Positions 5,717 to 59,060 of a stretch of 64,000 nucleotides of DNA are shown here, one piece after another. The notes below the pieces were generated by a model. It ran no database searches and was not told where the DNA came from. It was given only the letters and a program-made list of their open reading frames with translations. The stretch's first letter is position 1. The number at the start of each line of letters is the position of its first letter. Location: NCBI GenBank assembly GCA_016124845.1, contig WGMW01000027.1, positions 1-64,000 on the forward strand. Reading direction: 5' to 3'. Both the position numbers and the translations under genes were made by a program. Source of the DNA: Flavobacteriales bacterium (GTDB lineage: Bacteria > Bacteroidota > Bacteroidia > UBA10329).

Positions 5717-7132
5717 CTACTTCCCGCGTCCCATCATAACCGTTTGGACGGTGTAAATCAGGATTTTGATGTCCACCAAAAGACTCATGTTCTCAATGTA
5801 AAGCAGATCGAATTTCATCCGTCTGATCATCTGATCTACATTTTCTGCGTAGCCGTATTTTACCATTCCCCAAGAGGTGATTCCGGGTTTTACTTTCAGC
5901 AGATGCTTGTAATGTGGAGCTTTCAGCACGATCTGATCGATGAAGTGCTGCCTTTCTGGCCGCGGGCCGACAAGGCTCATGTCTCCAATAAGCACATTGT
6001 AGAACTGTGGAATTTCATCCAAACGAACTTTCCGCATAAACCGACCGAATGATGTAATGCGTGGGTCGTGATCGCTGGAAAGCGCTGGCCCCATTTTTTC
6101 GGCATCCACCACCATGGATCGAAACTTGTAGATCATGAACGGTTTTCCTCCTTTCCCGATGCGTTCCTGTGCATAGAAAATCGGGCCGGGGCTGCTCAGT
6201 TTTACGAACAATGACGTAGCCAGATAAACTGGGCTGAGCACGATCAAGGCAAGTGATGACAGAACGATGTCTCCAGCGCGTTTGGTCACCTGCTGCCATG
6301 GCGCCATGATGTCTTGCGTGACCTGGATCAATGGCGTGCCGTAAATGGAATCCATTCTTACAGAACCCGAAAGGATGTCGTACATGTCGGGAATCACTTT
6401 GACAATGACATCCGTTCCTTCCAATTCGTTGAGAATATGCTGCAGGTCTTGATGCTCGCTCGATTCCAATGCAATGATCACCTCTTCGATGCGGTGTTCT
6501 TGGATCACTTCTTGCAATTTGTCCTGATCACCCAGAAATGGTAGGTGATCTTCCAGCGGATAGCTTTCGCGCTTCTTCACGCGGATAAAACCTTTGAAAA
6601 GGTTGCCCGATGCCTGCTGCTGATTTTCCAGTTCCTGAAAGAGTTCCACGGCATTGGCATCGCTTCCTATCATCAGCGTTGGGAAACCTATCTCTCTGCG
6701 ATGGATCTTTCCTGCCGTGATGGAGGAGAGCATGAAACGGACCAGAAACGTTAGTGTAAAATGAAGCCCGAACAGCACCGCATACGATTGATAATACGTG
6801 CGATGGTTCAGCACCACATCATCCAAAATAAGGGCAAAAAACAGGAAGGTGACACCGATGACCGTACTGAGAATTGTCTGGAAAAACTCCTTCAGTCTGG
6901 ATTTGCGATAAACCTTGCGATAGGTGCCAAGAACGGTATAGAAAAGCAGCCAGAATATCGGTATCAGCACCAGCCCCTGAATGAACCGCTGATCCATTTC
7001 CACCAAGATCTGAATGCCGTATTTGCTGCTTTCTACAAATGCTTTTCGGTAGTAGAAGAAAAGGCTCCAAGCCACCGAAGCGGCAATCCAATCAAAAAGG
7101 ATGTATTTGAACGTCTGTAGCCTTCGGTTCAT
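5717..7132 (-). CDS. Undecaprenyl-phosphate sugar phosphotransferase (exopolysaccharide initiation)
   Basis: The 471-residue protein has four to five N-terminal membrane helices (about 10-150), a central nucleotide-binding-like CoA_binding_3 region (about 150-260) and a C-terminal Bac_transf catalytic domain (about 280-471). The signature blocks are present: KRAGDIVLSSLALI, FYAQERIGKGGKPF, YKFRSM, RLDEIPQFYNVLIGDMSLVG and GPRPE. Enzymes of the WbaP/WcaJ type move a sugar-1-phosphate from a UDP-sugar to undecaprenyl phosphate, the first membrane step of capsule or exopolysaccharide synthesis. The start is the ATG at 7130-7132, overlapping the stop of the upstream lipoprotein gene as TGATG, so translation is probably coupled. 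Which sugar is used is not readable. Confidence 0.9.
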   Translation of the reverse strand: MNRRLQTFKYILFDWIAASVAWSLFFYYRKAFVESSKYGIQILVEMDQRFIQGLVLIPIFWLLFYTVLGTYRKVYRKSRLKEFFQTILSTVIGVTFLFFALILDDVVLNHRTYYQSYAVLFGLHFTLTFLVRFMLSSITAGKIHRREIGFPTLMIGSDANAVELFQELENQQQASGNLFKGFIRVKKRESYPLEDHLPFLGDQDKLQEVIQEHRIEEVIIALESSEHQDLQHILNELEGTDVIVKVIPDMYDILSGSVRMDSIYGTPLIQVTQDIMAPWQQVTKRAGDIVLSSLALIVLSPVYLATSLFVKLSSPGPIFYAQERIGKGGKPFMIYKFRSMVVDAEKMGPALSSDHDPRITSFGRFMRKVRLDEIPQFYNVLIGDMSLVGPRPERQHFIDQIVLKAPHYKHLLKVKPGITSWGMVKYGYAENVDQMIRRMKFDLLYIENMSLLVDIKILIYTVQTVMMGRGK

Positions 7133-8001
7133 CAATGCACCAATCGGATGTTATCGATGTATACGTACGCTTCACCCTCCAAACCATCATCGCGGAAAAA
7201 ACCGAAATACGGCCGATGCTCGTAAAAGTTTGGATTGTTACCCTTAGCATCCGTTAGATTTATGTAAATATGGTTCCATTCTTCCTTTGGGTTTAGAAAA
7301 ATGATGGGTTGTTGAGTTATGTTCCCTGGTGATGTACTGTAAAGTCCGAACGCAAAGGAATTATTGCAGCGGTAGGTGAATTCGATCATGGCAGGTGTAC
7401 TCACGTCACCCAAACTCAACGGATCGCCACCTTTTTTACACTCTATAAAAGTTTCGTCTGCGCCAAGTGAAAGTTTGATGGATTGGCCATCGTAAGCTTC
7501 TGACCCTGAAACACGTGTCAATGTTCCTTGGCTGTTGGGACTGTTCAATGTCAATGTCAGTCCGCCATTGTCAAAATCCTCCAGCCAATCGAAGGTTACC
7601 CAATCCTTGAATTTGAGCGTTGGGTTGATGTGTATGACGCTGTCTGGGAAAAGTTCCACATCATGCAGATAATCTTCGGTATAGAAGTAAGGAATGCGTG
7701 TGGCCACCTGTCCGTTCAGTTTTACACCGCCTTGGATGCGGATACTGGTAACGCCATCTTTCAGTATCGGAAACGTGGCAGGCAGTTCGTAGATGCCCAC
7801 CATCTTTTCCTCTTCAAAAAGCCAAGCATCGGTAAAATTCTGAACTGGATTGCCTTGTCCGGCACTCACCTGCAAGCGAATGGAATCTACGCGAATAAAG
7901 GATGGGATCTTTTCTTTCGGGTTGATGATATCGCAGGATGATGAGCTCAATATCACCATCGAAAAGAATAAAACGAAGAAAAGAGACGATCGGGTATTCA
8001 T
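7132..8001 (-). CDS. Lipoprotein with carbohydrate-binding-like beta-sandwich
   Basis: The 289-residue protein has a lipoprotein signal (MNTRSSLFFVLFFSMVILSSSSC), so it is anchored in the envelope by Cys23. The C-terminal half is beta-rich (DWLEDFDNGGLTLTLNSP...SEAYDGQSIKLSL...YIDNIRLVH) and resembles the jelly-roll layout of carbohydrate-binding or discoidin-like modules, although I cannot name a family. Its stop codon overlaps the start of the sugar-transferase gene, so it is probably made in the same operon and may work in exopolysaccharide export or surface attachment. That role is inference. Confidence 0.65.
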   Translation of the reverse strand: MNTRSSLFFVLFFSMVILSSSSCDIINPKEKIPSFIRVDSIRLQVSAGQGNPVQNFTDAWLFEEEKMVGIYELPATFPILKDGVTSIRIQGGVKLNGQVATRIPYFYTEDYLHDVELFPDSVIHINPTLKFKDWVTFDWLEDFDNGGLTLTLNSPNSQGTLTRVSGSEAYDGQSIKLSLGADETFIECKKGGDPLSLGDVSTPAMIEFTYRCNNSFAFGLYSTSPGNITQQPIIFLNPKEEWNHIYINLTDAKGNNPNFYEHRPYFGFFRDDGLEGEAYVYIDNIRLVH

Positions 8002-17946: not shown

Positions 17947-20900
17947 ATGAAGCCCATCCGTATTCTTCCTCTTCTTTTTCTATTGTCTTTCGTCCACCAT
18001 CGGTCCATTGCGCAACAGGGAATGGGAGTTGGTACCAACAATCCACTTGAGATGCTTCAGGTGGAAGGTGCTATCAAGGTCGGCACCGACTTTAACAACT
18101 CCAATGCTGCGCCTACCGGTGGCGCTGGAACCATCCGCTGGAACGGAACTGATTTCCAAGGTTGGGATGGTACGCAATGGATCACCTTCTCTGGCAGTGG
18201 CGCAGCAGGTTGGGAATTGACGGGTAACGCTGGAACAACACCTGGAACCAATTTTATCGGAACAACTGATGATCAGGATATTGTGATCAAAAGATTCAAT
18301 GAAGAAGGACTTCGCCTGTCTACAGGAGGTGCGTTATGGGCAAGTGGCAACAGTTCCACAGGAATCACTCCTGCAAGTGGTGCCGGTTCGCGTTTAATGT
18401 GGATTCCCGCAAAACACTCTTTCAGAGCAGGGTCGGTTACAGGAACTCAGTGGGACAACGGGAGCATTGGTGTCGGATCGGTTGCCTTTGGAGAGGACAA
18501 CACCGTATCAGGGGCACAGGGCTTTTCATCAGGTAGACAGAACACGTCAAGCGGTGCAGGAGCCGTAACCATGGGTTGGACCAATACGGCCAGTGGAACT
18601 TTATCTGCTGCCCTTGGAGGTCAGCAGAACACGGCCAGTGGTTATGGTAGTCATGCCATAAACGGAGGCACTGTCGCAAGTGGGCAGTGGTCATTTGCCT
18701 CTGGACAACAAACTACTGCAAGTGGCGGCAGTTCATCTTCATTTGGGCGCGGAACTACGGCACCGTCTTATGCTGAGGTAGTGGTAGGAATGTATTCGAC
18801 CAACTATAGCCCTGCCAATACCACAGGCTATGATGCCTCCGACCGTATTTTCAATATAGGTAATGGCGCTTCCAACGCTGCCAGATCAGATGCATTTACA
18901 GTTTTGAAAGGAGGTAATGTGGGTATTGGCGTCAACAATCCTCAGGACGAATTGCATGTGCAAGGCTCTGTAAGAATGGTTGACGGCAACCAACAAGCAG
19001 GTTATATTCCTGTTTCGGATGCCAATGGAACGATGACATGGAGCGACCCGAGTACTGTGGTTGGGGCGCAGGCTTGGAGTCTCACGGGAAATGCTGGTAT
19101 TGATCAAACCAACAACTTCATCGGTACAACGGATAATAATAACGTTCGATTCCTGACAAATAACGTTGAGCGAATGGTGATTACAACCGCAGGAAGAGTT
19201 GGTGTAGGCACTGTAGCCCCCGTATCTACTTTTCATGTTGCTGGAATTACCACACTTGGAGACCCTTCATCAACTGGAGCGACTTTCTTCAACATGGTCA
19301 GATCGGGGTCAGCAGGACGAATCTATCTGGGAAGCGGTGGATCGACACCTCACATGATCATCAATGCTCAAACTGCAAATGGTGCTATCGTTCTTAATAC
19401 AAGTACTGGAGAGGTAATGCGCGCGGCAGACAGTGGTAATGTCGGTATCGGAACAACCAATCCACAAAGCAAACTTCACGTAGCCGGGGCAATGCGAATG
19501 GTAGATGGCAACCAAGCTGCTGGATTCATTCCTGTTTCCGATGCCAACGGAACGATGATCTGGACAGACCCAGCAACAATTGCCACTGCCGATGATGGCG
19601 ATTGGACCGTCAGTGGCAACAACATTTACAACTCAAATAGCGGCTTCGTTGGTGTTGGAACAACTACTCCGAACAGAAAACTGACTGTTGGTGCACCATA
19701 CAGCATCAACATGACACCGATAATGAGTGTAAATACCACAGGGAATCAACCGCTTCTCATTGGAGAAACAACCACTCCGAAAGCCGTTATGATCGGATAC
19801 GATGGAAATGACATTCAAGGAAGGTCAGGAACAAACCTTATCACTAATAGCGATCTGGTACTTAACAAGTATGGAGGTAATGTTGGTGTTGGTTCGGCAA
19901 CCCCTATCTCCAAAATTGACGTAAGCGGAAGTGGTTGGTTCCGCTCCAGTGGCGGTGGTGGTTTGGCCTCTTCGGCTGGAACGGGGCTTAGAGTATTCTA
20001 CGATTCGCCCTCAAATATTGGACAATTGTTCGCATACGATTACACGAACGCAGTGGCCAAAGACCTTGCATTTCAGCTTCCTGGGGGTAACGTTGGAGTT
20101 GGAACAAATGGACCCACTCAGAAAGTTGATGTCAATGGTAAGATAAGAATGCGAACTGGGGCTACAACGGGATATGTTCCCGTTTCAGATGCAAACGGAA
20201 CCATGACCTGGACCGATCCAGCCACGATCACCACAGCAGATGATGGTGATTGGACCATCAGCGGAAACAATCAATATTCTGCGGTATCAGGAAACGTTGG
20301 TATCGGTACAACAGCGCCAGCCACTAAACTTCATTTGGAAGGAAGCGCCATCGTCAATGCAAATGGTGTTTCTGGCGAAGGCATCACACTGAGGGCTGGT
20401 TATCAGGGTCGTTACTATCAGAGCATCCTTGCATATGACCACAGTGGAAATGGTACTGGTTTTGCCGATGGGTTGGCCATTTCGGGTTTTGACGGAATCG
20501 GCTTCATAACTAATAAGACCGACAATACTTATGGAAACGTTCGGATGTTCGTTTCCCAAGCAGGAAATGTCGGTATCGGCAATTTAACCCCGAACACACC
20601 TCTGTTTGTCGAGGGAAATACGACCATCAACGCAAATGGCGTTTCGGGTGTAGGTCTTACGCTTAGAAGTGGTTACGCTGGCCGCTATCATGTCGGTCTC
20701 AACGCGTACGACCATAGTGGAGGAGGAACCGGTTATGCTGACGGTCTTGCGGTTTCAGGTTATGATGGAATCAGCTTTATTACTGCAAAGACGGATGCTA
20801 CTTATGGAAACGTGAGAATGCTTATTTCCCAAGCAGGAAACGTAGGTATTGGAACAACCACACCAGCTGATGAATTACATGTGGTTGGTAGCGTACGAAT

Positions 20901-23514
20901 GGTTGACGGCAACCAAGCGGCCGGATACATCCCTGTTTCAGATGCCAGCGGAACCATGACATGGACGGCCGCTTCCGCTATTTCAGGAGTTAACCACTTG
21001 GTCGATGCTGATGGTGATACCAAAGTTCAAGTGGAGGAAAGTTCCGATGAGGACATCATCCGCTTTGATCTTGCAGGTACAGAAAGATGGGTGATGACCG
21101 GCACGCGTCTGGAACCGAGTAATTCAGGCAACTCTGTATTCATTGGTCCGAATGCGGGCAGTAGCGATGATCTTACTGCAAATGCCAACGTTTTCATCGG
21201 CAACAACGCTGGCCGCGATAACACAACGGGTTCAGCAAACGTGGCCATTGGAGCAAGTCCTCTACGCTCCAATAATTCAAATTATAACGTTGCCATTGGG
21301 AACTCATTGATGAACAGTACAACTGCGTATGGGACCATATCCATCGGACATAATAGCATGAATAACTCCAATGGATCATACAACGTGGTTCTCGGGGTTC
21401 AGGCCGGCATCAACCATACCTCTGGTACTCAGAATGTTTTTATCGGCTCCATCAATGTGGCCCAGGCCAATGTTTCAGGATCGAACAATATCATGTTGGG
21501 TGCGGGTTCTGGTCAAAGCAATACCGGTTCCACAAACGTGTTCATAGGGGTAGGTACCGGATCGAACAACACGGGTTCAGGAAGCGTGTTTCTTGGCCAT
21601 AATGCAGGAAAAAATGAACTGTCCGGCAATCGACTTTATATCGAGAACTCGAACTCCAGCACACCACTTGTTTACGGAGAGTTTGACAATGACATACTGG
21701 CCGTGAACGGCAAATTGGGAGTGGGAACGCAAGCTCCGCAAGATGAATTACATGTGGTTGGCAACATCCGTATGGTGGATGGCAACCAAGCTGCTGGCTA
21801 CATTCCTGTTTCCGATGCCAGCGGAACCATGACGTGGACAGACCCAACAACCATTACCACAGCTGATGATGGGGATTGGACTCTGAATGGAAATGACATG
21901 AGCAATGCCAATAGCGGGAATGTGGGTATTGGAACGACATCTCCCGACCGTCTTCTGAATATCGAATCTGCAACTGGCCCTCAAATGCTATTCACCAGAA
22001 ACGACAACAATACCACCGATGGCGAGGTGATGGGCGAGCTCCTTTTTGACAATAATGATGATACCGCACCTTCAAGCGTTGATGCTGCCGCTGTTATTCG
22101 CGCCACCGCGGCTGGCAACCAAGGAAATAGCAACAAGGGAGGCAATATCCTTTTCCTTACCAAGAATAGTCAGGCAAGTGGAGCAACTGCTACGGAAAGA
22201 GTGCGCATTTCCGCCAACGGCAATGTTGGTTTTGGCGTGTCAGCTCCGATCTCATCGGTGGATGTAAGCGGTACGGGATGGTTCCGGTCAAGTGCTGGAG
22301 GTGGTCTGGGCTCAACGGCCGGAACAGGAATCCGAGTATTCTATGATTCGCCATCCGATGCAGGACATCTTTATGCGTATGATTATGCGTCCTCAGCCTC
22401 GAAAAACCTTGTGTTGCAGCAACCTGGTGGAAATGTCGGAATCGGTGTTGTTTCACCAGCTCAGAAACTTCACATGCTTGGAACTGCAAGGGTGGAAAAT
22501 GGAACCTTGCAGTTGTACAGTAGCGATAGTTACGAAAAAATACATTTGACCAATGCAGGTACGAATGGCTCAAAGATCAATCATTCAACTGGATGGTCTG
22601 TCGATTATTATGCAGGTCCAGGTAGTTCAGGAAATACTGGTTTGCATCGATTTTTCACCACAGATAATGGATATTCTGAAAAAATGCGGATCGCGAGTAA
22701 TGGTAGCGTAGGAATTGGCACTACATCACCAACACAAAAACTGCATGTTTTTGATTCTTCGCAAGCTGGTCTGCAGATCGAAAACAGTACGACCAATTCA
22801 AATCAGATCAATTTGACGAACAATAACGGTTTTTGGCACATGAGTGGACCGCGAGCGTCAAGTAACGATTTGAATTTCTATTGGAATAACGGGAGTTACA
22901 ATCTCGCCATGAGCCTTGGAAGTGATGGAAATGTTGGAATTGGAAATGAGACGCCTGCCGCAAAGTTGCATGTAAGCGGAACTGGACGCTTTTCGGCCGA
23001 TCTTTATATGGATAACGGCACACGTATAATGCCCACGCCTGGTGGAAACTATGTCCGTTTGGGTGCCAGCGGGAACGCATTTCAGGATGTTTACACACGC
23101 TATAGCTATGTCAGCACCGCTTATTCGGTCAGCGATCAGAACATGAAGAAGGACATCATGCCTGTCAAGGACCGGATCGATGCAATCGCTGCATTGAAGA
23201 GTATCCAGCCGAAAGCATTCAAGTGGGATCTGAACAAACTCTATGGCGAAGGAGCGAAGCCCGTCTGCGCGGCTGATACTGCTTGGAGATATGGTTTCGT
23301 GGCGCAGGATATCGAGCAAGTGATGCCTGAAACCGTTCATAGAATGGAAGAGACGGGTACGCTGGTTATGAACTACGATGCGGTTGTGTCGGTTCTTTTC
23401 GAGGCAACCAGACAGCAGCAGGAGATCATAGAGCAGGAGCGCGAAGCACGTCAGGAGCTACAGGCCAAATTAGATGAATTGCTTCTTCGGTTGGAACAAT
23501 TGGAATCGAAGTAA
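17947..23514 (+). CDS. Giant exported tail-fibre-like adhesin A with S74 chaperone domain
   Basis: The 1855-residue protein has a signal peptide (MKPIRILPLLFLLSFVHHRSIA-QQ). An N-terminal cap (LEMLQVEGAIKVGTD...GGAGTIRWNGT) is followed by about sixteen copies of a GNVGIGTTxPxxKLHV motif, many joined to an MVDGNQAAGYIPVSDANGTM module. Stretches of YadA-head-like repeats (NTVSGAQGFSSG, NVFIGNNAGRDNTTG, NIMLGAGSGQSN) lie between. The last 110 residues are a peptidase S74/endosialidase-chaperone domain (DQNMKKDIMPVKDRIDAI...YGFVAQDIEQVMPE) ending in a coiled coil; in phage fibres this domain helps trimerise and then cleaves itself off. The predicted role is a trimeric surface fibre or adhesin; the ligand is unknown. 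No phage genes are nearby. Confidence 0.85.
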   Translation: MKPIRILPLLFLLSFVHHRSIAQQGMGVGTNNPLEMLQVEGAIKVGTDFNNSNAAPTGGAGTIRWNGTDFQGWDGTQWITFSGSGAAGWELTGNAGTTPGTNFIGTTDDQDIVIKRFNEEGLRLSTGGALWASGNSSTGITPASGAGSRLMWIPAKHSFRAGSVTGTQWDNGSIGVGSVAFGEDNTVSGAQGFSSGRQNTSSGAGAVTMGWTNTASGTLSAALGGQQNTASGYGSHAINGGTVASGQWSFASGQQTTASGGSSSSFGRGTTAPSYAEVVVGMYSTNYSPANTTGYDASDRIFNIGNGASNAARSDAFTVLKGGNVGIGVNNPQDELHVQGSVRMVDGNQQAGYIPVSDANGTMTWSDPSTVVGAQAWSLTGNAGIDQTNNFIGTTDNNNVRFLTNNVERMVITTAGRVGVGTVAPVSTFHVAGITTLGDPSSTGATFFNMVRSGSAGRIYLGSGGSTPHMIINAQTANGAIVLNTSTGEVMRAADSGNVGIGTTNPQSKLHVAGAMRMVDGNQAAGFIPVSDANGTMIWTDPATIATADDGDWTVSGNNIYNSNSGFVGVGTTTPNRKLTVGAPYSINMTPIMSVNTTGNQPLLIGETTTPKAVMIGYDGNDIQGRSGTNLITNSDLVLNKYGGNVGVGSATPISKIDVSGSGWFRSSGGGGLASSAGTGLRVFYDSPSNIGQLFAYDYTNAVAKDLAFQLPGGNVGVGTNGPTQKVDVNGKIRMRTGATTGYVPVSDANGTMTWTDPATITTADDGDWTISGNNQYSAVSGNVGIGTTAPATKLHLEGSAIVNANGVSGEGITLRAGYQGRYYQSILAYDHSGNGTGFADGLAISGFDGIGFITNKTDNTYGNVRMFVSQAGNVGIGNLTPNTPLFVEGNTTINANGVSGVGLTLRSGYAGRYHVGLNAYDHSGGGTGYADGLAVSGYDGISFITAKTDATYGNVRMLISQAGNVGIGTTTPADELHVVGSVRMVDGNQAAGYIPVSDASGTMTWTAASAISGVNHLVDADGDTKVQVEESSDEDIIRFDLAGTERWVMTGTRLEPSNSGNSVFIGPNAGSSDDLTANANVFIGNNAGRDNTTGSANVAIGASPLRSNNSNYNVAIGNSLMNSTTAYGTISIGHNSMNNSNGSYNVVLGVQAGINHTSGTQNVFIGSINVAQANVSGSNNIMLGAGSGQSNTGSTNVFIGVGTGSNNTGSGSVFLGHNAGKNELSGNRLYIENSNSSTPLVYGEFDNDILAVNGKLGVGTQAPQDELHVVGNIRMVDGNQAAGYIPVSDASGTMTWTDPTTITTADDGDWTLNGNDMSNANSGNVGIGTTSPDRLLNIESATGPQMLFTRNDNNTTDGEVMGELLFDNNDDTAPSSVDAAAVIRATAAGNQGNSNKGGNILFLTKNSQASGATATERVRISANGNVGFGVSAPISSVDVSGTGWFRSSAGGGLGSTAGTGIRVFYDSPSDAGHLYAYDYASSASKNLVLQQPGGNVGIGVVSPAQKLHMLGTARVENGTLQLYSSDSYEKIHLTNAGTNGSKINHSTGWSVDYYAGPGSSGNTGLHRFFTTDNGYSEKMRIASNGSVGIGTTSPTQKLHVFDSSQAGLQIENSTTNSNQINLTNNNGFWHMSGPRASSNDLNFYWNNGSYNLAMSLGSDGNVGIGNETPAAKLHVSGTGRFSADLYMDNGTRIMPTPGGNYVRLGASGNAFQDVYTRYSYVSTAYSVSDQNMKKDIMPVKDRIDAIAALKSIQPKAFKWDLNKLYGEGAKPVCAADTAWRYGFVAQDIEQVMPETVHRMEETGTLVMNYDAVVSVLFEATRQQQEIIEQEREARQELQAKLDELLLRLEQLESK

Positions 23515-41300: not shown

Positions 41301-44300
41301 TTATTTGGAAATGGTTGATTCCAATCCCAATTGTGCTTCAATTCTTTCGAGGCGGGATGAATTCGATGCTTTTTCAGCAGAAAGCTCTGCTTTCAACGCA
41401 TCATTCTCCGCTTTCAACTCCTTCACCGCATTGATCAGCATATAGGTCATGGCCGAATTGTCCACGTTCAGGTATTCTGTGCCATCCTTTTCGAAGTTGC
41501 CCACCATGTAAGGGGCAATTTCCTGCAATTCCTGCGCGATCACACCCACGTATTCCGGTTCGGTATCGTAGCCTGATTTCTCATTGTAGTGATAAGTAAC
41601 GGGGCGTATCTGCATCAATGCCTCCAAGCCATCGCTGTACTCGTTGATGTCCTGCTTCAGTCTGCGGTCTGAGGTGGCGGTCCAACTGCCACCGCCTGTT
41701 TTGGCGGCCGTGCCGTTCACCTGTAGCGCATAGGTTGGGCTGGTTGCAAAAATTCCAACGTTACCATTCTGATTGATGGTCAAGGCATCGCTGGCATCTA
41801 CCCTGAAAAGAAATGAGTTTCCTGTTTTGAAAACGAAAGGGGAGTTGAGGTCAGCCGTGTCGGGTGTAAGGATGTCGAAGTTTCTGCCTGTGGCTGTCAG
41901 CAAACTCAGCAGTTTGGTTTCGGTGGTGCCATCAGTGGTGTTCACCTCAAGGCCGTTCGTGACGTTCAGTTCGCCATTCACCAGCAACAGATCATTGTCA
42001 AACTCTCCATAGATCAGGGGAGTTGATGTATTTGAGTTGGCGATATACAACTTGTTCGAACCTGTCTCATTGTAGCCAGCGTTTTTTCCGATGAATATGT
42101 TGTGGGTTCCATTCGCACACTCCCGTCCTGCTCCGTTGCCAATGTAAACGTTAGAAGCGCCATTTGTGGCGTTGAAGCCAGATTGGTATCCGATATAAAC
42201 ATTAGCTCCTCCGGAACTTGCATTGTACCCAGATGAACTTCCTATGAACGTATTCTCTGTTTCCGTGGTCTGATATCGTCCTGCGATGTTGCCTACAAAT
42301 GTGTTGTTCGAGCCAGTGGTGTTTGATGAACCGGCCTTTCTTCCAATGAAGGTATTGGCTCCTCCGGACGTATTCATTTCGCCTGCCAGTCCTCCTAGAA
42401 AGACATTAAGTGTACCGCTACTGTTTGAGATTCCGGCCGCGCGACCGATGAACGTGTTGTCATCCGGGTCGTTGGCGAAAGCAATATTGGTGTAACCGTA
42501 AGCATTTGTTCCAATCGTCAATCGTTCACTCCCCGCAATATCAAATCGGATGATGTCCTCATCCGCGCTTTCCTCAACCTGAATCTTAGTGTCACCGTCA
42601 GCATCTGTTAATTCGGCAGATGTGGCCACCGACTGCCAACTGGCGTTTCCATCGGCATCGCTGGTCAGCACGTAGCCATCGGCCTGGTTGCCATCCTCAT
42701 ATTTTATCTGCCCCACCACATGCAGGGTGGTATCGGGTGTGCTGGTACCAACGCCTATTTCTCCGCTTTTCAGAACTACCATTGCATCTGAACGATTGGA
42801 TGAGCCTGTTCCATTACCGATTGTAAAGAGGCGGTCTGCTAGATCCCAGTCGCTACTGTTGCTAGGGGTGTAATTCGTACTGTATCTGCCTATGGTGACC
42901 TCATAAGCAGAAGGTGCCTTTGTGTAGTGTCCAATGGACGTGGCCGAATATCCACTTGCAGTTGAGAACAATCCCATGGTAGTGGAATATCCTCCGCTGG
43001 CAGTTGTATTGAACCCCATGGCAGTAGCGTTTACTCCGCTGGCCACGGTGGAAGTTCCCATGGCGGTTGAGACGTCACCACTGGCGGTGGTCTGTGATCC
43101 CAGTGCTGTGGCCTTGACACCGCTGGCGTCCGTCAGATAGCCTAACGCGGTAGCAGATATGCCTTTGGCCGTGGTGCCGTATCCGCTGGCAAACGAGTAG
43201 TTTCCAATGTTGGATGCGTCCCATTCATTGAGATTGACCAGACCCGCGCGGAACGCACCTTTACCTTTGTCAAAGAAGAAGCGGCTGTCATGGTCAGTGT
43301 TCCCATCATCATCCAATTGGGGGGAGCCGAACACGAAGTCGTCTGCGGTCTCATCCACCATACTGCCTGGAAGAACAACCCCATTCAGTGTATCGAAAAC
43401 GGAAGTGACTGGCAGGGAAGAGGCGGCTGTCCAATTGGCATTTCCCACGGAATCACTTGTCAGTACATAGCCATCGGCCTGCGTTCCGTTATTGATGCGC
43501 AGCGTTCCGTTTACGGCAAGGAAATCATTGTCGAATTCACCATAGATCAACGCGGCCGAGGAATCAGCATTTGAGTTTTCAATATAAAGTTTGTTGTCGC
43601 CAACCATGCTTTCTCCGGCATGTGCTCCCAACAATACACTATTACTGCCTTCAAAACCATACCCCGCCTTGTAGCCTAATGCCGTGTTCTCATCTCCAAC
43701 GTTACCGGGAAAAGACTGTTGCCTTAAACTCCAGTAACCCACAGCGGTATTATTGTTTACGTTACCACGTTGCAATGCTTGGGATCCAACAACCACATTA
43801 TAAGCCCCCGTCTCGTTCTCATTGAGCGTAAGGTATCCCAATGCGGTATTGGAATTGTAGTCAAGGTCGTCACTTGCTCCAGCTAATTCTCCAAGGAATA
43901 CGGAGCTTCCAGTATTTAGTACTTCCAACCGTCCGCTGTCCATTCTGAAGAATTCGGTACCTGCCATGTCAAAGCGGATGATGTCCTCATCGGCACTTTC
44001 CTCCACCTGTATCTTGGTGTCCCCGTCAGCATCCGCAATCTCAATGGCCGTGGCGGTTGCTTGCCAACTGGCATTGCCGCTGGCATCGCTGGTAAGCACA
44101 TAGCCATCGGCCTGATTGCCATCAACCAATTTCATGGTTCCCTCCACATGCAGCTTGGCGGATGGGGCAGAAGTTCCGATACCCACATTGGCACTGCTGC
44201 CCAACACGAGCGAATTGCTCTGAGTTACTGTTGCCCCCGCACCGATGGCCGTGGCGTTGGATAGGGTAGGGCTGCCATCGGCATTGGCCCCTATGTATGT

Positions 44301-45461
44301 GTTGCTGCTGCCTGTGGTGTTGCCATCTCCGGCATTGGTTCCCAGAAACGTGTTGCCTGCACCCGTGGTGGTGGCAAAACCCGTCCGATAGCCCAAAAAG
44401 GTGTTGGATGAACCTGTGGCATACCGACCACTTGATGTTCCGAAGTAGCTGTTGGCTGTGCCTATCAGATTCTCACGTCCTGCCTGAAAACCGACATACG
44501 AGTTGTTGCCGCCCGTGGTGGTGTTGTAACCGGCCTGGAAGCCGATGTAAATGTTGTTGCTCACATCCACCGCATTGTAGCCCGACTGGAAACCGATGTT
44601 GGTATTGTTGCTACCTGACTGATTCTTGTAACCTGCGGCATTCCCGATGGCGATGTTGTTGTTTCCCGTGGTGGTGTTATAACCTGCATAATAACCGATA
44701 AATGCATTTCGACTTCCGCTGGTTACCTTGCTACCTGCATGGTCGCCAATAAATGCATTGCGTTCTCCAGAACCTCCAGCGGCAATGCCATCGCCCGCAC
44801 CGGGACCAATGGACACGTTCAGGTCGCCCAGCATGTGAAGCGCGTTCTCTCCCCCGAAGGTGATGCGTGCATCAGCGTCCATGTCCAGCTCACCATCGGT
44901 GGTGAAACGGGCAACTTCCATATCGTTTGTTCTGATGGTCAGATCTTGCGCATCCAGCGTGCCGATGAAGTTGACCGAATCATCAGTACCAGCGTTTCCA
45001 TTGATGGTCCAATCATTTGGGTCGTTCCGCGAGCCGCCATCATTGCCTGAACCGCTTCTTTCTGCATAAAGTGCATAAGGAACGCTGAGCAGTTGAGAGG
45101 TTCCCATCTGCTGAAAATGGCCGTAGCCTTCCGCATCCATTTCCACGCTCAGATAATGCGAATCAGCTCCCCAATCGATTGTGCTGAATTCGCCTTCGAG
45201 AATCTCACCTGCTCCAATTGCCAGATTGAACAGACCGAGTTTGTTGGTCGTCACGGTGTGTTCCTCAGAATAGACCGGCCGGTCGAGGTCGTTTCCGCTC
45301 ATGATGGCGATCCGAAGAATTACTTCCGAATCGGATAGGGCTTTTCCATCAGCATCGCGGGCCACAGCTTGGTAGTTGAACTTCTGCGGGGCCTGCTGCG
45401 CGAGTGCGGGCAAAAGGAAAAAGGAAAAAGGAAAAAGGAGAGAAAGGAGGAGCTTTTTCAT
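41301..45461 (-). CDS. Giant exported tail-fibre-like adhesin B with S74 chaperone domain
   Basis: The 1386-residue protein has a signal peptide (MKKLLLSLLFPFSFFLLPALA) whose coding sequence contains a 7-nt tandem repeat. An N-terminal Bacteroidota cap domain (FNYQAVARDADGKALSDSEV...LLSVPYALYAE) follows. Then come YadA-head-like repeats (NNNIAIGNAAGYKNQSGSNN, NIYIGFQAGYNTTTG) and several NVGIGTSAPSAKLHVEG-type units with a DADGDTKIQVEESADEDIIRFD module. It ends in an S74 domain (SDRRLKQDINEYSDGLEAL, VGVIAQELQEIAPYM) and a coiled coil. The start is the ATG at 45461 that opens the signal peptide. It is probably a trimeric surface fibre co-transcribed with fibre C, 93 bp upstream. Confidence 0.85.
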   Translation of the reverse strand: MKKLLLSLLFPFSFFLLPALAQQAPQKFNYQAVARDADGKALSDSEVILRIAIMSGNDLDRPVYSEEHTVTTNKLGLFNLAIGAGEILEGEFSTIDWGADSHYLSVEMDAEGYGHFQQMGTSQLLSVPYALYAERSGSGNDGGSRNDPNDWTINGNAGTDDSVNFIGTLDAQDLTIRTNDMEVARFTTDGELDMDADARITFGGENALHMLGDLNVSIGPGAGDGIAAGGSGERNAFIGDHAGSKVTSGSRNAFIGYYAGYNTTTGNNNIAIGNAAGYKNQSGSNNTNIGFQSGYNAVDVSNNIYIGFQAGYNTTTGGNNSYVGFQAGRENLIGTANSYFGTSSGRYATGSSNTFLGYRTGFATTTGAGNTFLGTNAGDGNTTGSSNTYIGANADGSPTLSNATAIGAGATVTQSNSLVLGSSANVGIGTSAPSAKLHVEGTMKLVDGNQADGYVLTSDASGNASWQATATAIEIADADGDTKIQVEESADEDIIRFDMAGTEFFRMDSGRLEVLNTGSSVFLGELAGASDDLDYNSNTALGYLTLNENETGAYNVVVGSQALQRGNVNNNTAVGYWSLRQQSFPGNVGDENTALGYKAGYGFEGSNSVLLGAHAGESMVGDNKLYIENSNADSSAALIYGEFDNDFLAVNGTLRINNGTQADGYVLTSDSVGNANWTAASSLPVTSVFDTLNGVVLPGSMVDETADDFVFGSPQLDDDGNTDHDSRFFFDKGKGAFRAGLVNLNEWDASNIGNYSFASGYGTTAKGISATALGYLTDASGVKATALGSQTTASGDVSTAMGTSTVASGVNATAMGFNTTASGGYSTTMGLFSTASGYSATSIGHYTKAPSAYEVTIGRYSTNYTPSNSSDWDLADRLFTIGNGTGSSNRSDAMVVLKSGEIGVGTSTPDTTLHVVGQIKYEDGNQADGYVLTSDADGNASWQSVATSAELTDADGDTKIQVEESADEDIIRFDIAGSERLTIGTNAYGYTNIAFANDPDDNTFIGRAAGISNSSGTLNVFLGGLAGEMNTSGGANTFIGRKAGSSNTTGSNNTFVGNIAGRYQTTETENTFIGSSSGYNASSGGANVYIGYQSGFNATNGASNVYIGNGAGRECANGTHNIFIGKNAGYNETGSNKLYIANSNTSTPLIYGEFDNDLLLVNGELNVTNGLEVNTTDGTTETKLLSLLTATGRNFDILTPDTADLNSPFVFKTGNSFLFRVDASDALTINQNGNVGIFATSPTYALQVNGTAAKTGGGSWTATSDRRLKQDINEYSDGLEALMQIRPVTYHYNEKSGYDTEPEYVGVIAQELQEIAPYMVGNFEKDGTEYLNVDNSAMTYMLINAVKELKAENDALKAELSAEKASNSSRLERIEAQLGLESTISK
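45412..45438. repeat. Heptanucleotide tandem repeat in the signal-peptide codons of fibre B
   Basis: On the coding strand CCTTTTT is repeated three full times plus six bases. It encodes part of the hydrophobic core of the signal peptide. Because 7 is not a multiple of 3, gain or loss of one unit shifts the frame and would abolish the protein. Confidence 0.85.
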
Positions 45462-45554: not shown

Positions 45555-48500
45555 TTACAGACTACCAATGACCATGAACTGCAATGATTCTGAAGTACCA
45601 CTTACATTATCATCTCTATTGTAGATGAAGGATGTGGTGTTGTAAAAACCTATTCGACCGGATGAATCATCAACAGTTATTACCTGAGCATCAATATGAT
45701 ATACGGCTGACATGGTAGGCCAGGAACTTGGGTAAGTAACAAGTTGGTTTCCATCGGTTGTGGAATTGACGCGCCCCCAGGCAATGACCATGTTTCCGAT
45801 GACCTGATAGCCGGTGTTGCCCATGCTCTGATACATGGCCAAACCCCAACTTGCATTTCCACTACCGTCAGACTGAAGTACCTTATTGGCGCCCTGTGTG
45901 CCATCCACCAGTTGAAAGTCTCCTTCAACATCCAGAGTCGCACTTGGACTCACAGTTCCAACTCCTATATTCCCATCCACCACAAGGTTATTGTTTCCTG
46001 GATCAGACGTGCCACCAACGTGAAGGCTGTTCAGATCCATGTCCAACCATTTCATGTTGGCGGTAGAAACGAGAGCTCCCCAGCCATCTTGGTTCTTGAT
46101 GGCAAGACCGCCACCATTTCCGTTGAAATGACCGTCTCCGGCCTCGCCCGTATTGTAGTAGTTCTCATCAAAGAAAAGAACACCGTTGGCATCAGTGGTG
46201 TTGGATATTTCGGAGTTGGTCAACTGAATACCTCCAGTATTTGTAAGGTGAAGCGGTTCGCCTGATGAAACACCACCGATGCCTACATGTTTGGAGTTGT
46301 CAATGACCATGGCCTCAACACCACCAGCGTCAAATCGGATATAGTCCTCATCTGTGCTTTCTTCCACTTGGATCTTAGTATCACCATCGGCATCCACCAG
46401 TTCGTTTATTCCGGTTATCGAGGCTGGTGCTGTCCAGACCATGGTCCCGTTCGCATCCGAAACAGGGATATATCCCGCACTCTGGTTGCCATCCACCATT
46501 CTGATGGATCCTATCACATGCAGTTCATCTTGGGGCGAAGAGGCACCGATACCTACATTTCCGTTGGCGGCTATGCGCATTCGTTCTGTCGCGGATGCAC
46601 TACTCGTCTGATTGTTTTTGGTCATGAACAGGATATTTCCGCTCTTGTTGCTGTTTCCTTGATTTCCAGAAGCTGTAGCACGTATAACGGCTGCCGCATC
46701 CACACTTGATGGTGCGGTGTCATCGTTATTGTCAAAAAGCAGTTCGCCCATCACTTCACCATCGTTCGTGTTGTTGTCATTTCTGGTGAAAAGCATCTGT
46801 GGTCCTGTGGCCGATTCAATATTCAGTTGGCGGTCTGGAGTGGCTGTTCCAATTCCGATATTTCCTGTATTGCTGTTGTACATATCGTTTCCGTTCACGG
46901 TCCAATCGCCATCGTCTGCTGTAGTTATTGTTGTGGGGTCGGTCCAGACCACGTTGCCCAAACCATCTGTGGTCATCAGATAACCGCTGCTCCCATCCAC
47001 AGTAGGTAGGCTATAGGCATTATTAATATTCAGTATTCCATTTATTCGGAGAAGATCATTGTCAAACTCACCATATATAAGAGGCGAAGTTGAGTTGGTG
47101 TTCTCTATGTATAGTTTATTGTCACCAGTTTCTTGCCATCCGGCAGAATAACCTAAAAAAACGTTGTTGCTTCCGGTACTTCCATAGCCTGCGGAATAGC
47201 CCAGATATGTGTTGTTTGACCCCGAGATGTTGTTCCGTCCCGACCAATTTCCAATGCTTACATTGTATTGGCCGGTTGTATTATTTTCCAAGCTATTGTA
47301 TCCCATGGCAATATTGCCGTTGCCAGTGGTGTTGCTGTTAAGAGTGTTTCTGCCAACGGCAGTGTTGAATATTCCTGTGGTATTTGTGTGCAAGGCATCT
47401 TTACCAAAGGCGGAGTTGGAATGTGCTGTGGTATTCGAGCTCAGAGCGCCATCTCCAACTGCCGAATTGCTATCTCCAGTTGTATTGCTTGTCAAAGCAT
47501 TGCCAATGGCCGTATTGTAATTTCCGTTGGTATTGGCCCCTAAAGTTCCTTTGCCTATGGCAGTATTGTTGCGTCCAGACGTGTTCGAAGCCAATGCCTG
47601 ATACCCGAAGGCTGCGTTGTTTATCCCCGTATTCACGTTCAGTGCCTGATATCCGAATGAAGTACTGAAAGGGGTTCCAAGATCCAAGTATCCAGCCTTT
47701 TCTCCATTTACTCTGATCATAAGTGGCTGCGCGTCCGTTGTCCCGATGAAATTGGAGGATGGTGTGGTTGCCGAGTTTCCTGTCAAACTCCATCCTTGGT
47801 TTGAAACAATGGTGCTTGGGTCGGTCCATGTCATGGTTCCGTTGGCATCTGAAACCGGGATATACCCCACAGCTTGGTTCCCATCCACCATTCTTATAGA
47901 GCCTGCCACATGAAGTCGGTCTCCAGGGGTATTGGTTCCTAACCCAACGTATCCCGTGTTTCCAACGCCTACAACGGTCATCACCTCTGTTTGCGCGTTG
48001 GTCTGATCCTCAAATATGAAATGCAGATCGTTCGTTGTGGCTCCATAATCCTTATAAATGATGCTTGAACCCGTGGTGCCAAGATCTACGCTGAAGCCAC
48101 TTTGTATTCCATTATTGTCCAATTGAAGTTTATGCTGAGGAGCAGTAGTTCCCATTCCCACATTCCCATCGCTAAGCAGTACCATGTCCGGTGCTTCTGA
48201 TGCGGTGGACTGCGCATGGAACTGAAGCGCATTGGAACTCACTCCCAATCCGTAGAAGTCAGTTCCCGCTGCATTGTTGTAAATGGCCAGCTTCTTACCG
48301 GCCACATCAGTTATCGAACTTCCTAAACCTGAACCCAAACTCAGCAGGTTCGTTGGAGTTGTTGTGCCGATGCCCACATTGCCACTTACTGCGGAGTATT
48401 GATCGTTTCCGCTTATGGTCCAATCTCCGTCATCAGCGGTTGAAATAGTTGTAGGATCGGTCCAGGTCATGGTTCCGTTGGCATCGGAAACAGGAATGTA

Positions 48501-51287
48501 ACCGGCAGCAGCACCTGTTTCCATCTGGATATGTCCTGCTACATCCAATTTCGTATCCGGTGTCTCATCGCCAATGCCCACATTTCCGTTCACATCGATA
48601 TTGAAGCGCTGGGAAGCGGTTGAGTTTTGATAGATGGCAAAGTCTTTTAGACCCGTACCTGTTCTGTCCTGTAAAATACCCCAATCGTCTATCCGTACTG
48701 TTGCTCTTTCACTGGTTGGATGTGTAGAAGGGGTGATGACCAATGATGACGGATACTGGTTGCTTCCTGTTTCAATGGTAACGGTCGGTCCGCTTGCGCT
48801 GGTTGGAATAACATGGAGGGCGGTGGAGGGCGAAGTGGTGCCAATACCCACGTTACCATCCGGTTGAATGGTCACTCGGTCGTAGGTGTTCGAGTTATCG
48901 TTGAATGCGAAATGCAATCCTCCAGCGGGCGCGGCATTGAACCGCATGAACCAACCGTAATTGTAGGTTGGCTCGGCCAAACGGATTCCAGCATAACCGG
49001 AATTGACCGATGCCGCATCAACTCGAATATAATTGTCAGAACCGTCTTTTCTGAGATGAAGCAATTCTGAGGGTGTGGTAGCACCGATTCCCACATTGCC
49101 CGATACGGCCGAATATTGGTCGTTTCCGTTAATGGTCCAATCTCCATCATCAGCGGTTGATATGGTTGTGGGGTCGGTCCACGAAACGACTCCCGAACCA
49201 TTGGTGGTCATCAAATAGCCGCCAGCTCCATCAGCGTTTGGAAGGTCGTATGCATCATTGATATTGAGCGTTCCATTCTTGTAAACGGTAAGTGCATTGC
49301 TTCTATTGGCTGAATTGATGCCATTTCCGACCACAAAACTCCGGTCATTTGCATTGTATCCGTTGGTACTTGTTGGAACGTATTCGGTAGCATTTGCTCC
49401 CACAACAAATTCACTATAGGAAAAAGCCGTGTTATTCTGTCCGAATGCAGCACCATTGTTTGCAGAAACGCTATTGCTGTTTCCCGCTCCAATAAAGCCA
49501 CCTCTCGAAGTAACGGAATTGGAAATTCCACCACCGATGAACGCCTCATCAGCCGAAATGGTATTACTCTCACCACCGGCAATGGCAGATTGGCTTCCAG
49601 ATAGGGTGTCTCTGTATCCCCAAACAAAGGATTGAGAATTATTGCCCTGAGCCATATGGCTGAATTGACCACCGACCATCGACTTCTGACCACCCACCGA
49701 ATTATTCTGGCCAAACGCGGCTGAGTAAACATTTGAAACCGTGTTGCCAGAACCGGCAACGATGCTTCTACCGCTTGTTACCGAGTTTCCTTGACCAAAA
49801 GCTGCTGAGTAGGGTGCAGAAACATCATTGGTAGCACCGCCACCAATAAAACTGTGGTCGCCAGAAATAGTGTTGATTTCTCCTCCGGCAATTACGCTGT
49901 ATGAGGCTCCAGTTGTGACCGTGTCTTTCATTCCACCTATTACGGCTGAACTGGATGACCCGACAAATGCTTTGTCGCCACCACCTATAAAGGCTGCTCC
50001 TGCACTGGCCGTACTCTCTCTGCCAAATACTGCGGAGTAGGCGCCTCCTGAGGTGATCGTGTTCTGATAACCTGCCGCAAATCCGTTATTACCAGCAACT
50101 GAATTCTGATAACCGGCACCGATTGCGGCATTGCTTCCGGTAACCGTTTGCCCATCAAAACCTACAATGGATGAACCGACCACTTGGAACTTTGCATCAG
50201 GGGTTGATGTTCCAACACCCACGTTGCCTGAAACGGCTGAATATTCATCATTACCGCTGACCGTCCAATCACCATCATCGATCAACGAGTTTGGATCTGT
50301 CCAGGAAACCGAACCGGTGCCGTCCGTGGCCAAAACATAGCCATTGGTACCATCTACAGTTGGAAAACTATAAGTGTTGTTCACATTAAGCGTTCCATTC
50401 ACTCGCAGCAGAGCATTGTCAAACTCGCCATAGATCAGCGGACTGTTGGTATTGGAGTTTGCGATATAGAGCTTATTGGAACCGGATGAGTTCCGTCCAG
50501 CGGCATTGCCCAAAAAGACACTGTTGCTGCCTGTATTGGCATTTCCAGCCTCGACACCTATCGCCACATTCTGATCTCCATTGTTTTGGTACAAAGCATA
50601 GGAACCGATGGCGATATTTTGGGATCCAGATGTGTTGTTCCACATCACATCCCTTCCGAAAGCGATGTTGTGGTCGCCAGAAACCATATAATTCATGGTT
50701 CTTGAACCCATGCCCACATTATAGTTTCCCGTTGTTAGGTTGAGCAGCGGACGGTCACCAATGGCCGTGTTGTATTGTCCATTCACCAAACTTCGCAGTA
50801 CACCTGTTCCAAAGGCTGTGTTTCGTTGACCGGTCCCCGTCAATTCACCAGCGTCATCTCCATAGAAAACGTTCCAATTGGTGTTGGTTATGCGAACCCG
50901 TCCCGCTTCCATTCGGAAATACTCGGTACCGGCCACGTCAAACCTGATCAGGTCTTCATCAGGGCTTTCTTCAACCTGTACCTTGGTGTCCTGATCGGCA
51001 TCTTCGAGCAGGTTTGAAGAACCGCTTCCGAAAATGACCCATTGCGTGCCATCCCAACCCTCGAAGTTGGTACCGTTCCAACGGATGGTTCCAGCACCGC
51101 CCTGAGGCGCGCCTGTTGTATTGTTGTAGTCAGTGCCGACCTTGATGGCCCCGTTCACGTCAAGCATTTCCAACGGATTCGGTACTTCAATGCCCACACC
51201 GTTCTGAGCGTGTACCATTTGAAGGGATGAGGCCAGCAAAAGGATAAAACTGATAACCAGAATTTGAATGAGAGTTGACTTTTTCAT
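45555..51287 (-). CDS. Giant exported tail-fibre-like adhesin C with gp53-like tip
   Basis: The 1910-residue protein has a signal peptide (MKKSTLIQILVISFILLLASSLQMVHA) and an N-terminal cap homologous to fibre A (LEMLDVNGAIKVGTD...GGAGTIRWNGT...GWDGTQW). It continues with many NVGIGTTxP units and long YadA-head-like runs (NTAIGDRPLLNLTTGNYN, AFGQNNSVGGQKSMVGG, NTAVGRNTLNSNTTGNGN). Unlike A and B, it ends not in S74 but in about 85 residues resembling the phage tail-fibre gp53-like tip (GYQVIGNMVIAWGRVNS...VTYPSSWPTMSAVYHI). The ATG at 51287 opens the signal peptide. It is a predicted surface adhesin. Confidence 0.82.
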   Translation of the reverse strand: MKKSTLIQILVISFILLLASSLQMVHAQNGVGIEVPNPLEMLDVNGAIKVGTDYNNTTGAPQGGAGTIRWNGTNFEGWDGTQWVIFGSGSSNLLEDADQDTKVQVEESPDEDLIRFDVAGTEYFRMEAGRVRITNTNWNVFYGDDAGELTGTGQRNTAFGTGVLRSLVNGQYNTAIGDRPLLNLTTGNYNVGMGSRTMNYMVSGDHNIAFGRDVMWNNTSGSQNIAIGSYALYQNNGDQNVAIGVEAGNANTGSNSVFLGNAAGRNSSGSNKLYIANSNTNSPLIYGEFDNALLRVNGTLNVNNTYSFPTVDGTNGYVLATDGTGSVSWTDPNSLIDDGDWTVSGNDEYSAVSGNVGVGTSTPDAKFQVVGSSIVGFDGQTVTGSNAAIGAGYQNSVAGNNGFAAGYQNTITSGGAYSAVFGRESTASAGAAFIGGGDKAFVGSSSSAVIGGMKDTVTTGASYSVIAGGEINTISGDHSFIGGGATNDVSAPYSAAFGQGNSVTSGRSIVAGSGNTVSNVYSAAFGQNNSVGGQKSMVGGQFSHMAQGNNSQSFVWGYRDTLSGSQSAIAGGESNTISADEAFIGGGISNSVTSRGGFIGAGNSNSVSANNGAAFGQNNTAFSYSEFVVGANATEYVPTSTNGYNANDRSFVVGNGINSANRSNALTVYKNGTLNINDAYDLPNADGAGGYLMTTNGSGVVSWTDPTTISTADDGDWTINGNDQYSAVSGNVGIGATTPSELLHLRKDGSDNYIRVDAASVNSGYAGIRLAEPTYNYGWFMRFNAAPAGGLHFAFNDNSNTYDRVTIQPDGNVGIGTTSPSTALHVIPTSASGPTVTIETGSNQYPSSLVITPSTHPTSERATVRIDDWGILQDRTGTGLKDFAIYQNSTASQRFNIDVNGNVGIGDETPDTKLDVAGHIQMETGAAAGYIPVSDANGTMTWTDPTTISTADDGDWTISGNDQYSAVSGNVGIGTTTPTNLLSLGSGLGSSITDVAGKKLAIYNNAAGTDFYGLGVSSNALQFHAQSTASEAPDMVLLSDGNVGMGTTAPQHKLQLDNNGIQSGFSVDLGTTGSSIIYKDYGATTNDLHFIFEDQTNAQTEVMTVVGVGNTGYVGLGTNTPGDRLHVAGSIRMVDGNQAVGYIPVSDANGTMTWTDPSTIVSNQGWSLTGNSATTPSSNFIGTTDAQPLMIRVNGEKAGYLDLGTPFSTSFGYQALNVNTGINNAAFGYQALASNTSGRNNTAIGKGTLGANTNGNYNTAIGNALTSNTTGDSNSAVGDGALSSNTTAHSNSAFGKDALHTNTTGIFNTAVGRNTLNSNTTGNGNIAMGYNSLENNTTGQYNVSIGNWSGRNNISGSNNTYLGYSAGYGSTGSNNVFLGYSAGWQETGDNKLYIENTNSTSPLIYGEFDNDLLRINGILNINNAYSLPTVDGSSGYLMTTDGLGNVVWTDPTTITTADDGDWTVNGNDMYNSNTGNIGIGTATPDRQLNIESATGPQMLFTRNDNNTNDGEVMGELLFDNNDDTAPSSVDAAAVIRATASGNQGNSNKSGNILFMTKNNQTSSASATERMRIAANGNVGIGASSPQDELHVIGSIRMVDGNQSAGYIPVSDANGTMVWTAPASITGINELVDADGDTKIQVEESTDEDYIRFDAGGVEAMVIDNSKHVGIGGVSSGEPLHLTNTGGIQLTNSEISNTTDANGVLFFDENYYNTGEAGDGHFNGNGGGLAIKNQDGWGALVSTANMKWLDMDLNSLHVGGTSDPGNNNLVVDGNIGVGTVSPSATLDVEGDFQLVDGTQGANKVLQSDGSGNASWGLAMYQSMGNTGYQVIGNMVIAWGRVNSTTDGNQLVTYPSSWPTMSAVYHIDAQVITVDDSSGRIGFYNTTSFIYNRDDNVSGTSESLQFMVIGSL

Positions 51288-51619
51288 GATGGATGGTTTG
51301 ATGTTCCCAAAGGTCGATTGCGCTATTGCTGTTGCCATTACAGTTTTACATTTCTGTTTTACACTATTCTGAATTGGTCGTGTTCAAAAGGTCATTGTTC
51401 GGCACTTTTTGAACTTGATTTCAAAGTTCTGCCCCAAGCCAACGCTTACCCAAACAACTTTTTACATTTCGGGGTGGTTTAAAACGATTTTTTAACGATT
51501 GAATCGGTCTTTTTTGAACTTGGATAACCTTTCGTTTCCTTGGAATTAAGGGTGTTTCAAACAATTGATTTTGTTTGGTTGAATACGAGTTTGAAAGCTT
51601 GTGGCATCTACATTTGGGT
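51288..51619. promoter_or_regulatory. Divergent intergenic region between fibre C and partner B
   Basis: The 332 bp have no coding frame. TTTTTGAACTTG occurs twice (51406-51417 and 51511-51522), and the first copy also pairs with GTTCAAAA at 51382-51389 as an 8-bp inverted repeat. No perfect TAnnTTTG was found for either direction, suggesting factor-dependent or unusual promoters. Confidence 0.45.
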
Positions 51620-58623: not shown

Positions 58624-58644
58624 CAAGTGGTTCAACCAGCGCCT

Positions 58645-59060
58645 CCTTCGGTTCGTTGCTCACTCAGGATGAACTTCTCGCCCCAGAAAAATGAAAAAGC
58701 CTCTCCGAAATTGGAAAGGCTTCTGTTCTTGTGACTCGACTGGGGCTTCCTTCGGTTCGTTCCTCACTCAGGATGAACTTCTCGCCCCAGATAAATGAAA
58801 AAGCCTCTCCGAAATTGGAAAGGCTTCTGTTCTCGTGACTCGACTGGGGCTTCCTTCGGTTCGTTCCTCACTCAGGATGAACTTCTCGCCCCAGATAAAT
58901 GAAAAAGCCTCTCCAAAAATGGAAAGGCTTCTGTTCTTGTGACTCGACTGGGGCTTCCTTCGATTCGTTCCTCACTCAGGATGAACTTCTCGCCCCAGAT
59001 AAATGAAAAAGCCTCTCCGAAATTGGAAAGGCTTCTGTTCTTGTGACTCGACTGGGGCTC
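58645..59060. repeat. Four exact-period 104-bp tandem repeats carrying tRNA-Lys 3' ends and terminators
   Basis: Units start at 58645, 58749, 58853 and 58957; the fifth boundary (59061) falls inside tRNA-Lys. Each holds a CCTTCGGTTCGTTCCTCACT element, CTCGCCCCAG, a hairpin of the type AAAAAGCCTCTCC...GGAAAGGCTT (a terminator when read on the minus strand) and the 16-nt tRNA 3' end GACTCGACTGGGGCT. Differences are a few point changes, so the array is recent. In transcript order it is tRNA, then four terminators in series. The unit boundary in the tRNA suggests amplification by slippage or unequal exchange at the tRNA end. Confidence 0.92.

Follow-up and report, generated by a model that had tools for sequence, protein, structure and literature searches.

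Within the 64,000-nucleotide stretch of Flavobacteriales DNA analyzed here (referred to as the window), a perfect heptanucleotide tandem array lies in the predicted signal peptide of a large surface-fiber-type protein, fiber B, and its periodicity goes beyond base composition and is not due to chance. We lean, with slightly better than even confidence, toward a microsatellite that arose by slippage in a tolerant signal-peptide core and that would form, at most, a low-rate, incipient switch of one surface fiber. In kind, the array is ordinary.

Results

The array spans positions 45412 to 45439 on the minus (coding) strand, and TRF resolved it into 4.0 perfect units over 28 nt (AAAAGGA on the plus strand, TCCTTTT/CCTTTTT on the coding strand; 100% matches), with a score of 56 that makes it the top short-period array of the window. 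The sequence-only reading had described a CCTTTTT repeat of 3.9 units in the fiber B signal peptide at 45412 to 45438; the repeat is indeed there and starts where it was placed, but that interval ends one base short. The fiber B frame begins with ATGAAAAAG at 45461, and the array, which reads TCCTTTTTCCTTTTTCCTTTTTCCTTTT on the coding strand, occupies codons 8 to 17 of the 1386-codon frame and encodes LFPFSFFLL of the signal-peptide core. The repeat itself is real; an assembly error is an unlikely source, as sequencing reads extend well beyond 28 bp.

The N-terminal peptide MKKLLLSLLFPFSFFLLPALAQ, encoded by ATGAAAAAGCTCCTCCTTTCTCTCCTTTTTCCTTTTTCCTTTTTCCTTTTGCCCGCACTCGCGCAG at 45396 to 45461 on the minus strand, is laid out like a signal peptide and is predicted to be one from its sequence features and family comparison: it shows a basic n-region, a hydrophobic core, and an ALA-Q end like the A-Q ends of the family. 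It is followed by QAPQKFNYQAVARDADGKAL; both this layout and the A-Q boundary recur in homologues from this genome and from related ones. Each 7-nt unit moves the reading frame by one position (7 mod 3 = 1), so that all three frames translate the repeat into one P-F-S-F-F-L-F cycle, and this frame-independent hydrophobic core is probably the reason why CCTTTTT DNA is tolerated in a signal peptide.

When units were added or removed in silico, changes of one or two units in either direction ended translation after 32 to 51 codons; changes of three units preserved the long frame and made the core longer or shorter by 7 residues. In the shifted versions, the main frame offers no ATG or GTG before the mature part begins; its sole alternative start is a TTG at the array end, which would lack the signal peptide. 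The earlier expectation that gain or loss of one 7-nt unit changes the frame is thus borne out in silico, and its placement of the array within the signal peptide of a surface adhesin agrees with a large surface-fiber-type protein whose signal peptide is predicted. The array has two features of a slipped-strand contingency locus of the coding SSR type, namely, perfect tandem repetition of a unit that is not a multiple of 3, inside a coding sequence near its start, and truncation of the in silico product on unit gain or loss.

The lag-7 identity run of the array is 21, compared with a longest run of 11 in an order-5 Markov simulation of 4.36 Mb. Because cores rich in F, S, and L are themselves T-rich, we also used a stricter null, in which the same peptide was recoded with the codon usage of 211 long open reading frames (ORFs) from the same genome; the longest run among 200,000 synonymous recodings of MKKLLLSLLFPFSFFLLPALAQ was 19, and none reached 21. 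With a periodicity above both nulls, a DNA-level process is indicated, most simply slippage. That the T-rich repeat merely follows from coding an F/L-rich signal peptide, with no DNA-level history, would fit a 75%-identical paralogue on contig C12 of the same genome, which encodes a similar core (LFFQFSFFIFP) with TTTTCC-rich DNA. This reading is already disfavored by the recodings and by the 34 family signal peptides listed, where a lag run above 8 occurs only in fiber B, and we regard it as very improbable.

Fiber B (1386 amino acids; 41301 to 45461, minus strand) was characterized with Pfam, PHROGs, NCBIfam, and a sequence motif. It combines an N-terminal FNYQAVARDADGKAL domain of ∼120 amino acids that weakly matches Bdello_MAT_N, YadA-head-like repeats (Pfam YadA_head), and a C-terminal Peptidase_S74 chaperone (PF13884; 59.9 bits against a cutoff of 22) carrying the SDxxxK motif of S74 trimeric-fiber domains as SDRRLK at residue 1264. 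Several tail-fiber and tail-spike families were matched in the PHROGs search, relatives with 27 to 49% identity are found on viral contigs, and the trimeric adhesin BpaC and Bdellovibrio Bd2133 are among the sequence relatives with a solved structure. A phage tail fiber or prophage was considered and rejected: among ten scanned neighbor ORFs, those identified were cellular (ketopantoate hydroxymethyltransferase, FKBP, riboflavin synthesis, and peptidase), apart from one short transposase-domain ORF, and the predicted signal peptide also argues against a phage fiber. Membership in the Bdellovibrio MAT superfamily was likewise set aside because the NCBIfam MAT_N score of 34.4 bits falls below the curated cutoff of 60.

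Directly upstream, fiber B is adjoined by fiber A, a 1927-amino-acid ORF (45555 to 51338, minus strand) whose repeats are homologous to fiber B; its likely start is the internal MKKSTLIQ, and it has no Pfam or NCBIfam match. The homologous A-B order recurs on contig C12, where three consecutive S74 fiber ORFs of 1610, 1705, and 673 amino acids lie at 76000 to 95900, the first two being homologous to fibers A and B and thus a duplicated pair. With 13 S74 matches in the genome, fibers of this type are redundant. Another S74 fiber-type gene is present in the window itself, a 1855-amino-acid ORF at 17947 to 23514 on the plus strand (S74 match at ∼23131 to 23340). TRF also reported four 104-bp tandem copies with 97% identity (TCCTTCGGTTCGTTCCTCACTCAGGATGAAC...) at 58644 to 59059, between the M42-peptidase and riboflavin-synthesis ORFs.

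The C12 paralogue has TTTTTTCAGTTTTCCTTTTTCATTTTCCC at the array position, similar in composition and with no array, and aligns gap-free from the array to the cleavage site. Given this alignment and its TTTTCC-rich core, the share of point mutation in the origin of the array could be as large as that of slippage. The array is absent from this paralogue and from the other 32 family signal peptides listed; rather than being retained at homologous loci, it has a counterpart in one family member with 3.3 units, in the sister genome G005. The best family match outside the genome shares 55% identity with the fiber B N terminus, too distant to serve as an orthologue for comparing unit number.

Across the class, at least three CCTTTTT units occur in 4 of 395 genomes, compared with 5 of 395 for a control heptamer with the same bases in scrambled order, showing no class-level enrichment of the motif over this control. 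Within the genus, four of nine genomes contain shorter matches (16 nt or more). G005, which a shared translated flank identifies with, or places very close to, the MAG “Flavobacteriales bacterium Tobar13m-G11,” has about a dozen CCTTTTT places, three of them in apparent signal peptides, with 2.6 to 3.3 units and in frame. These belong to a 906-amino-acid protein of the same N-terminal family as fiber B (3.3 units), a 787-amino-acid protein starting with MKHSIFFSFFLFPFFSVAQ (3.1 units), and a 358-amino-acid probable lipoprotein (two arrays, 2.9 and 2.6 units). On contig C11 of G005, at 7027, a TTTTTCC array sits inside FSFFLFSILITGC, which resembles a lipoprotein signal sequence; a short distance upstream, no start codon in frame is obvious, and this could be an OFF state or a misjudged start.

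Among 80 loci listed with at least 3.6 units in named genomes, most look intergenic or lie just upstream of starts, and two appear to fall in signal peptides, one in a Gemmataceae MAG (4.3 units) and one in an Omnitrophica genome (4.7 units). For other genomes, open frames rather than annotation served to assign placements; all signal-peptide arrays found are in frame, and out-of-frame arrays would hardly be recognized. The same heptamer reaches ∼20 units in two Bacteroidota genomes (one on contig C42 of G033, at 146897), with no long open frame running through, so that the motif can expand strongly.

In a sample of about 790 kb (18%) of the genome that carries fiber B, the only other 7-mer array of at least 25 nt was GACCGTG with 3.6 units, which looks intergenic, and no other non-triplet array of comparable length was found at a gene start. 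A genome-wide CCTTTTT repeat family was rejected, as the whole genome holds one such array only. Poly-G switches were rejected as well: the genome has three places with 9 to 12 G, and at none of them is there a clear long reading frame with the tract at its beginning. In the sample, the longest homopolymer consists of 12 C (on the opposite strand, 12 G) at 858 to 869 of a sampled stretch of contig C22. Contig C2 carries at 7224 an 8-mer pyrimidine repeat, TTTTCTCC with 2.5 units, in an apparent lipoprotein signal peptide of an 832-codon frame.

Discussion

In the explanation that we marginally favor, replication slippage would have created the array inside the hydrophobic core of the fiber B signal peptide, where it may persist because CCTTTTT is hydrophobic in all frames and would be tolerated provided that the overall length preserves the frame. 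The assembled genome would then represent the ON state. Adding or losing one or two units would yield a dead peptide of 32 to 51 amino acids and no fiber, so that an OFF switch would remove the fiber from the surface, reversibly, while a three-unit change would do no more than add 7 residues to the core or take 7 away. At four units, slippage would be expected above the background frameshift rate and well below that of opa-type loci. This explanation is supported by the frame logic, by the periodicity above both nulls, by the presence of the same motif in the signal peptides of three different proteins of G005 and in the apparent signal peptides of the Gemmataceae MAG and the Omnitrophica genome, and by the redundancy of fibers that 13 S74 proteins provide; it is weakened by the shortness of a four-unit array and by the gap-free, array-free paralogue.

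Somewhat less probable, but still to be taken seriously, is a neutral by-product: a generic pyrimidine-rich microsatellite, of a sort that can arise anywhere, would have become fixed in a tolerant core, and four-unit slippage would be too rare to matter, with no selected switching. The paralogues without the array, the similar frequency of the scrambled heptamer, and the predominance of intergenic and upstream positions among the 80 listed loci, with two in apparent signal peptides, all fit this reading. By itself, however, it leaves the three signal-peptide placements among the dozen or so places in G005 unexplained, and a change in unit number alters the frame regardless of selection. The sequence-only reading had gone further and seen a classic contingency locus, i.e., an opa-type locus evolved for high-rate on/off switching of an adhesive fiber. 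Parts of that layout hold: the array sits in the predicted signal peptide of a surface-fiber-type protein, its unit is not divisible by 3, truncation is reversible in silico, and opa uses CTCTT leader repeats (PMC3960869). Nevertheless, we consider selection for such switching improbable, ranking it behind both a weak, incipient switch and a neutral microsatellite, because of copy number and lack of conservation: there are only four units, compared with mostly 13 to 38 in known phase-variable heptamers of Haemophilus influenzae, although an (AACAACC)1-7 tract is listed as a candidate (PMC2651432); the array is not conserved in the family; and no further array of this motif exists in the genome.

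A broader proposal, which we regard as improbable, is that surface and secreted proteins of this Flavobacteriales genus are repeatedly controlled by CCTTTTT microsatellites in signal-peptide cores acting as frame-tolerant switches, a lineage-specific counterpart of the opa leader on phage-tail-like adhesive fibers. If so, slippage switching would operate in a phylum better known for DNA inversion. Slippage switching is documented mostly in host-adapted pathogens; were it real here, an environmental Bacteroidota lineage would toggle tail-fiber-like adhesins by signal-peptide slippage. If it is not real, the case shows that a low-copy signal-peptide repeat can mimic a contingency locus by sequence alone.

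The Bdellovibrio MAT fibers come from a different phylum, and no signal-peptide repeat is described for them in the available part of the source, which shows that they share with fiber B a signal peptide, a conserved domain of ∼130 amino acids, a phage-like fiber, and a C-terminal S74 domain with SDxxxK (PMC10769870). Among known switches, Neisseria opa encodes a surface adhesin and resembles fiber B in that a pyrimidine-rich repeat with a non-multiple-of-3 unit codes for part of the signal peptide, where copy number sets the frame (PMC3960869, PMC13183285). The opa repeat is a pentamer with known length variation and a measured rate of ∼1e-3 per generation (PMC3960869), whereas the fiber B array is a four-unit heptamer known from one assembly. 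The 5′ coding CT repeats of Helicobacter pylori oipA switch the frame of an outer membrane protein; as far as the available part of the source describes them, they differ in being dinucleotides, variable among isolates, and in an unrelated protein (PMC10564699). H. influenzae hmw1A and hmw2A are likewise adhesin genes with a seven-base repeat (PMC8262952, PMC2651432), but their repeats lie in the promoter, number about 13 to 38 units, and grade expression instead of setting the frame. With 4.0 units, the fiber B array reaches the threshold of at least three units for heptamer SSRs (PMC2651432) and stays below most proven cases. Few copies can nonetheless suffice for frequent frameshifts, since in Pseudomonas putida a CTGG tandem tract as short as that of lacI acts as a hot spot for insertions and deletions (PMC3485313).
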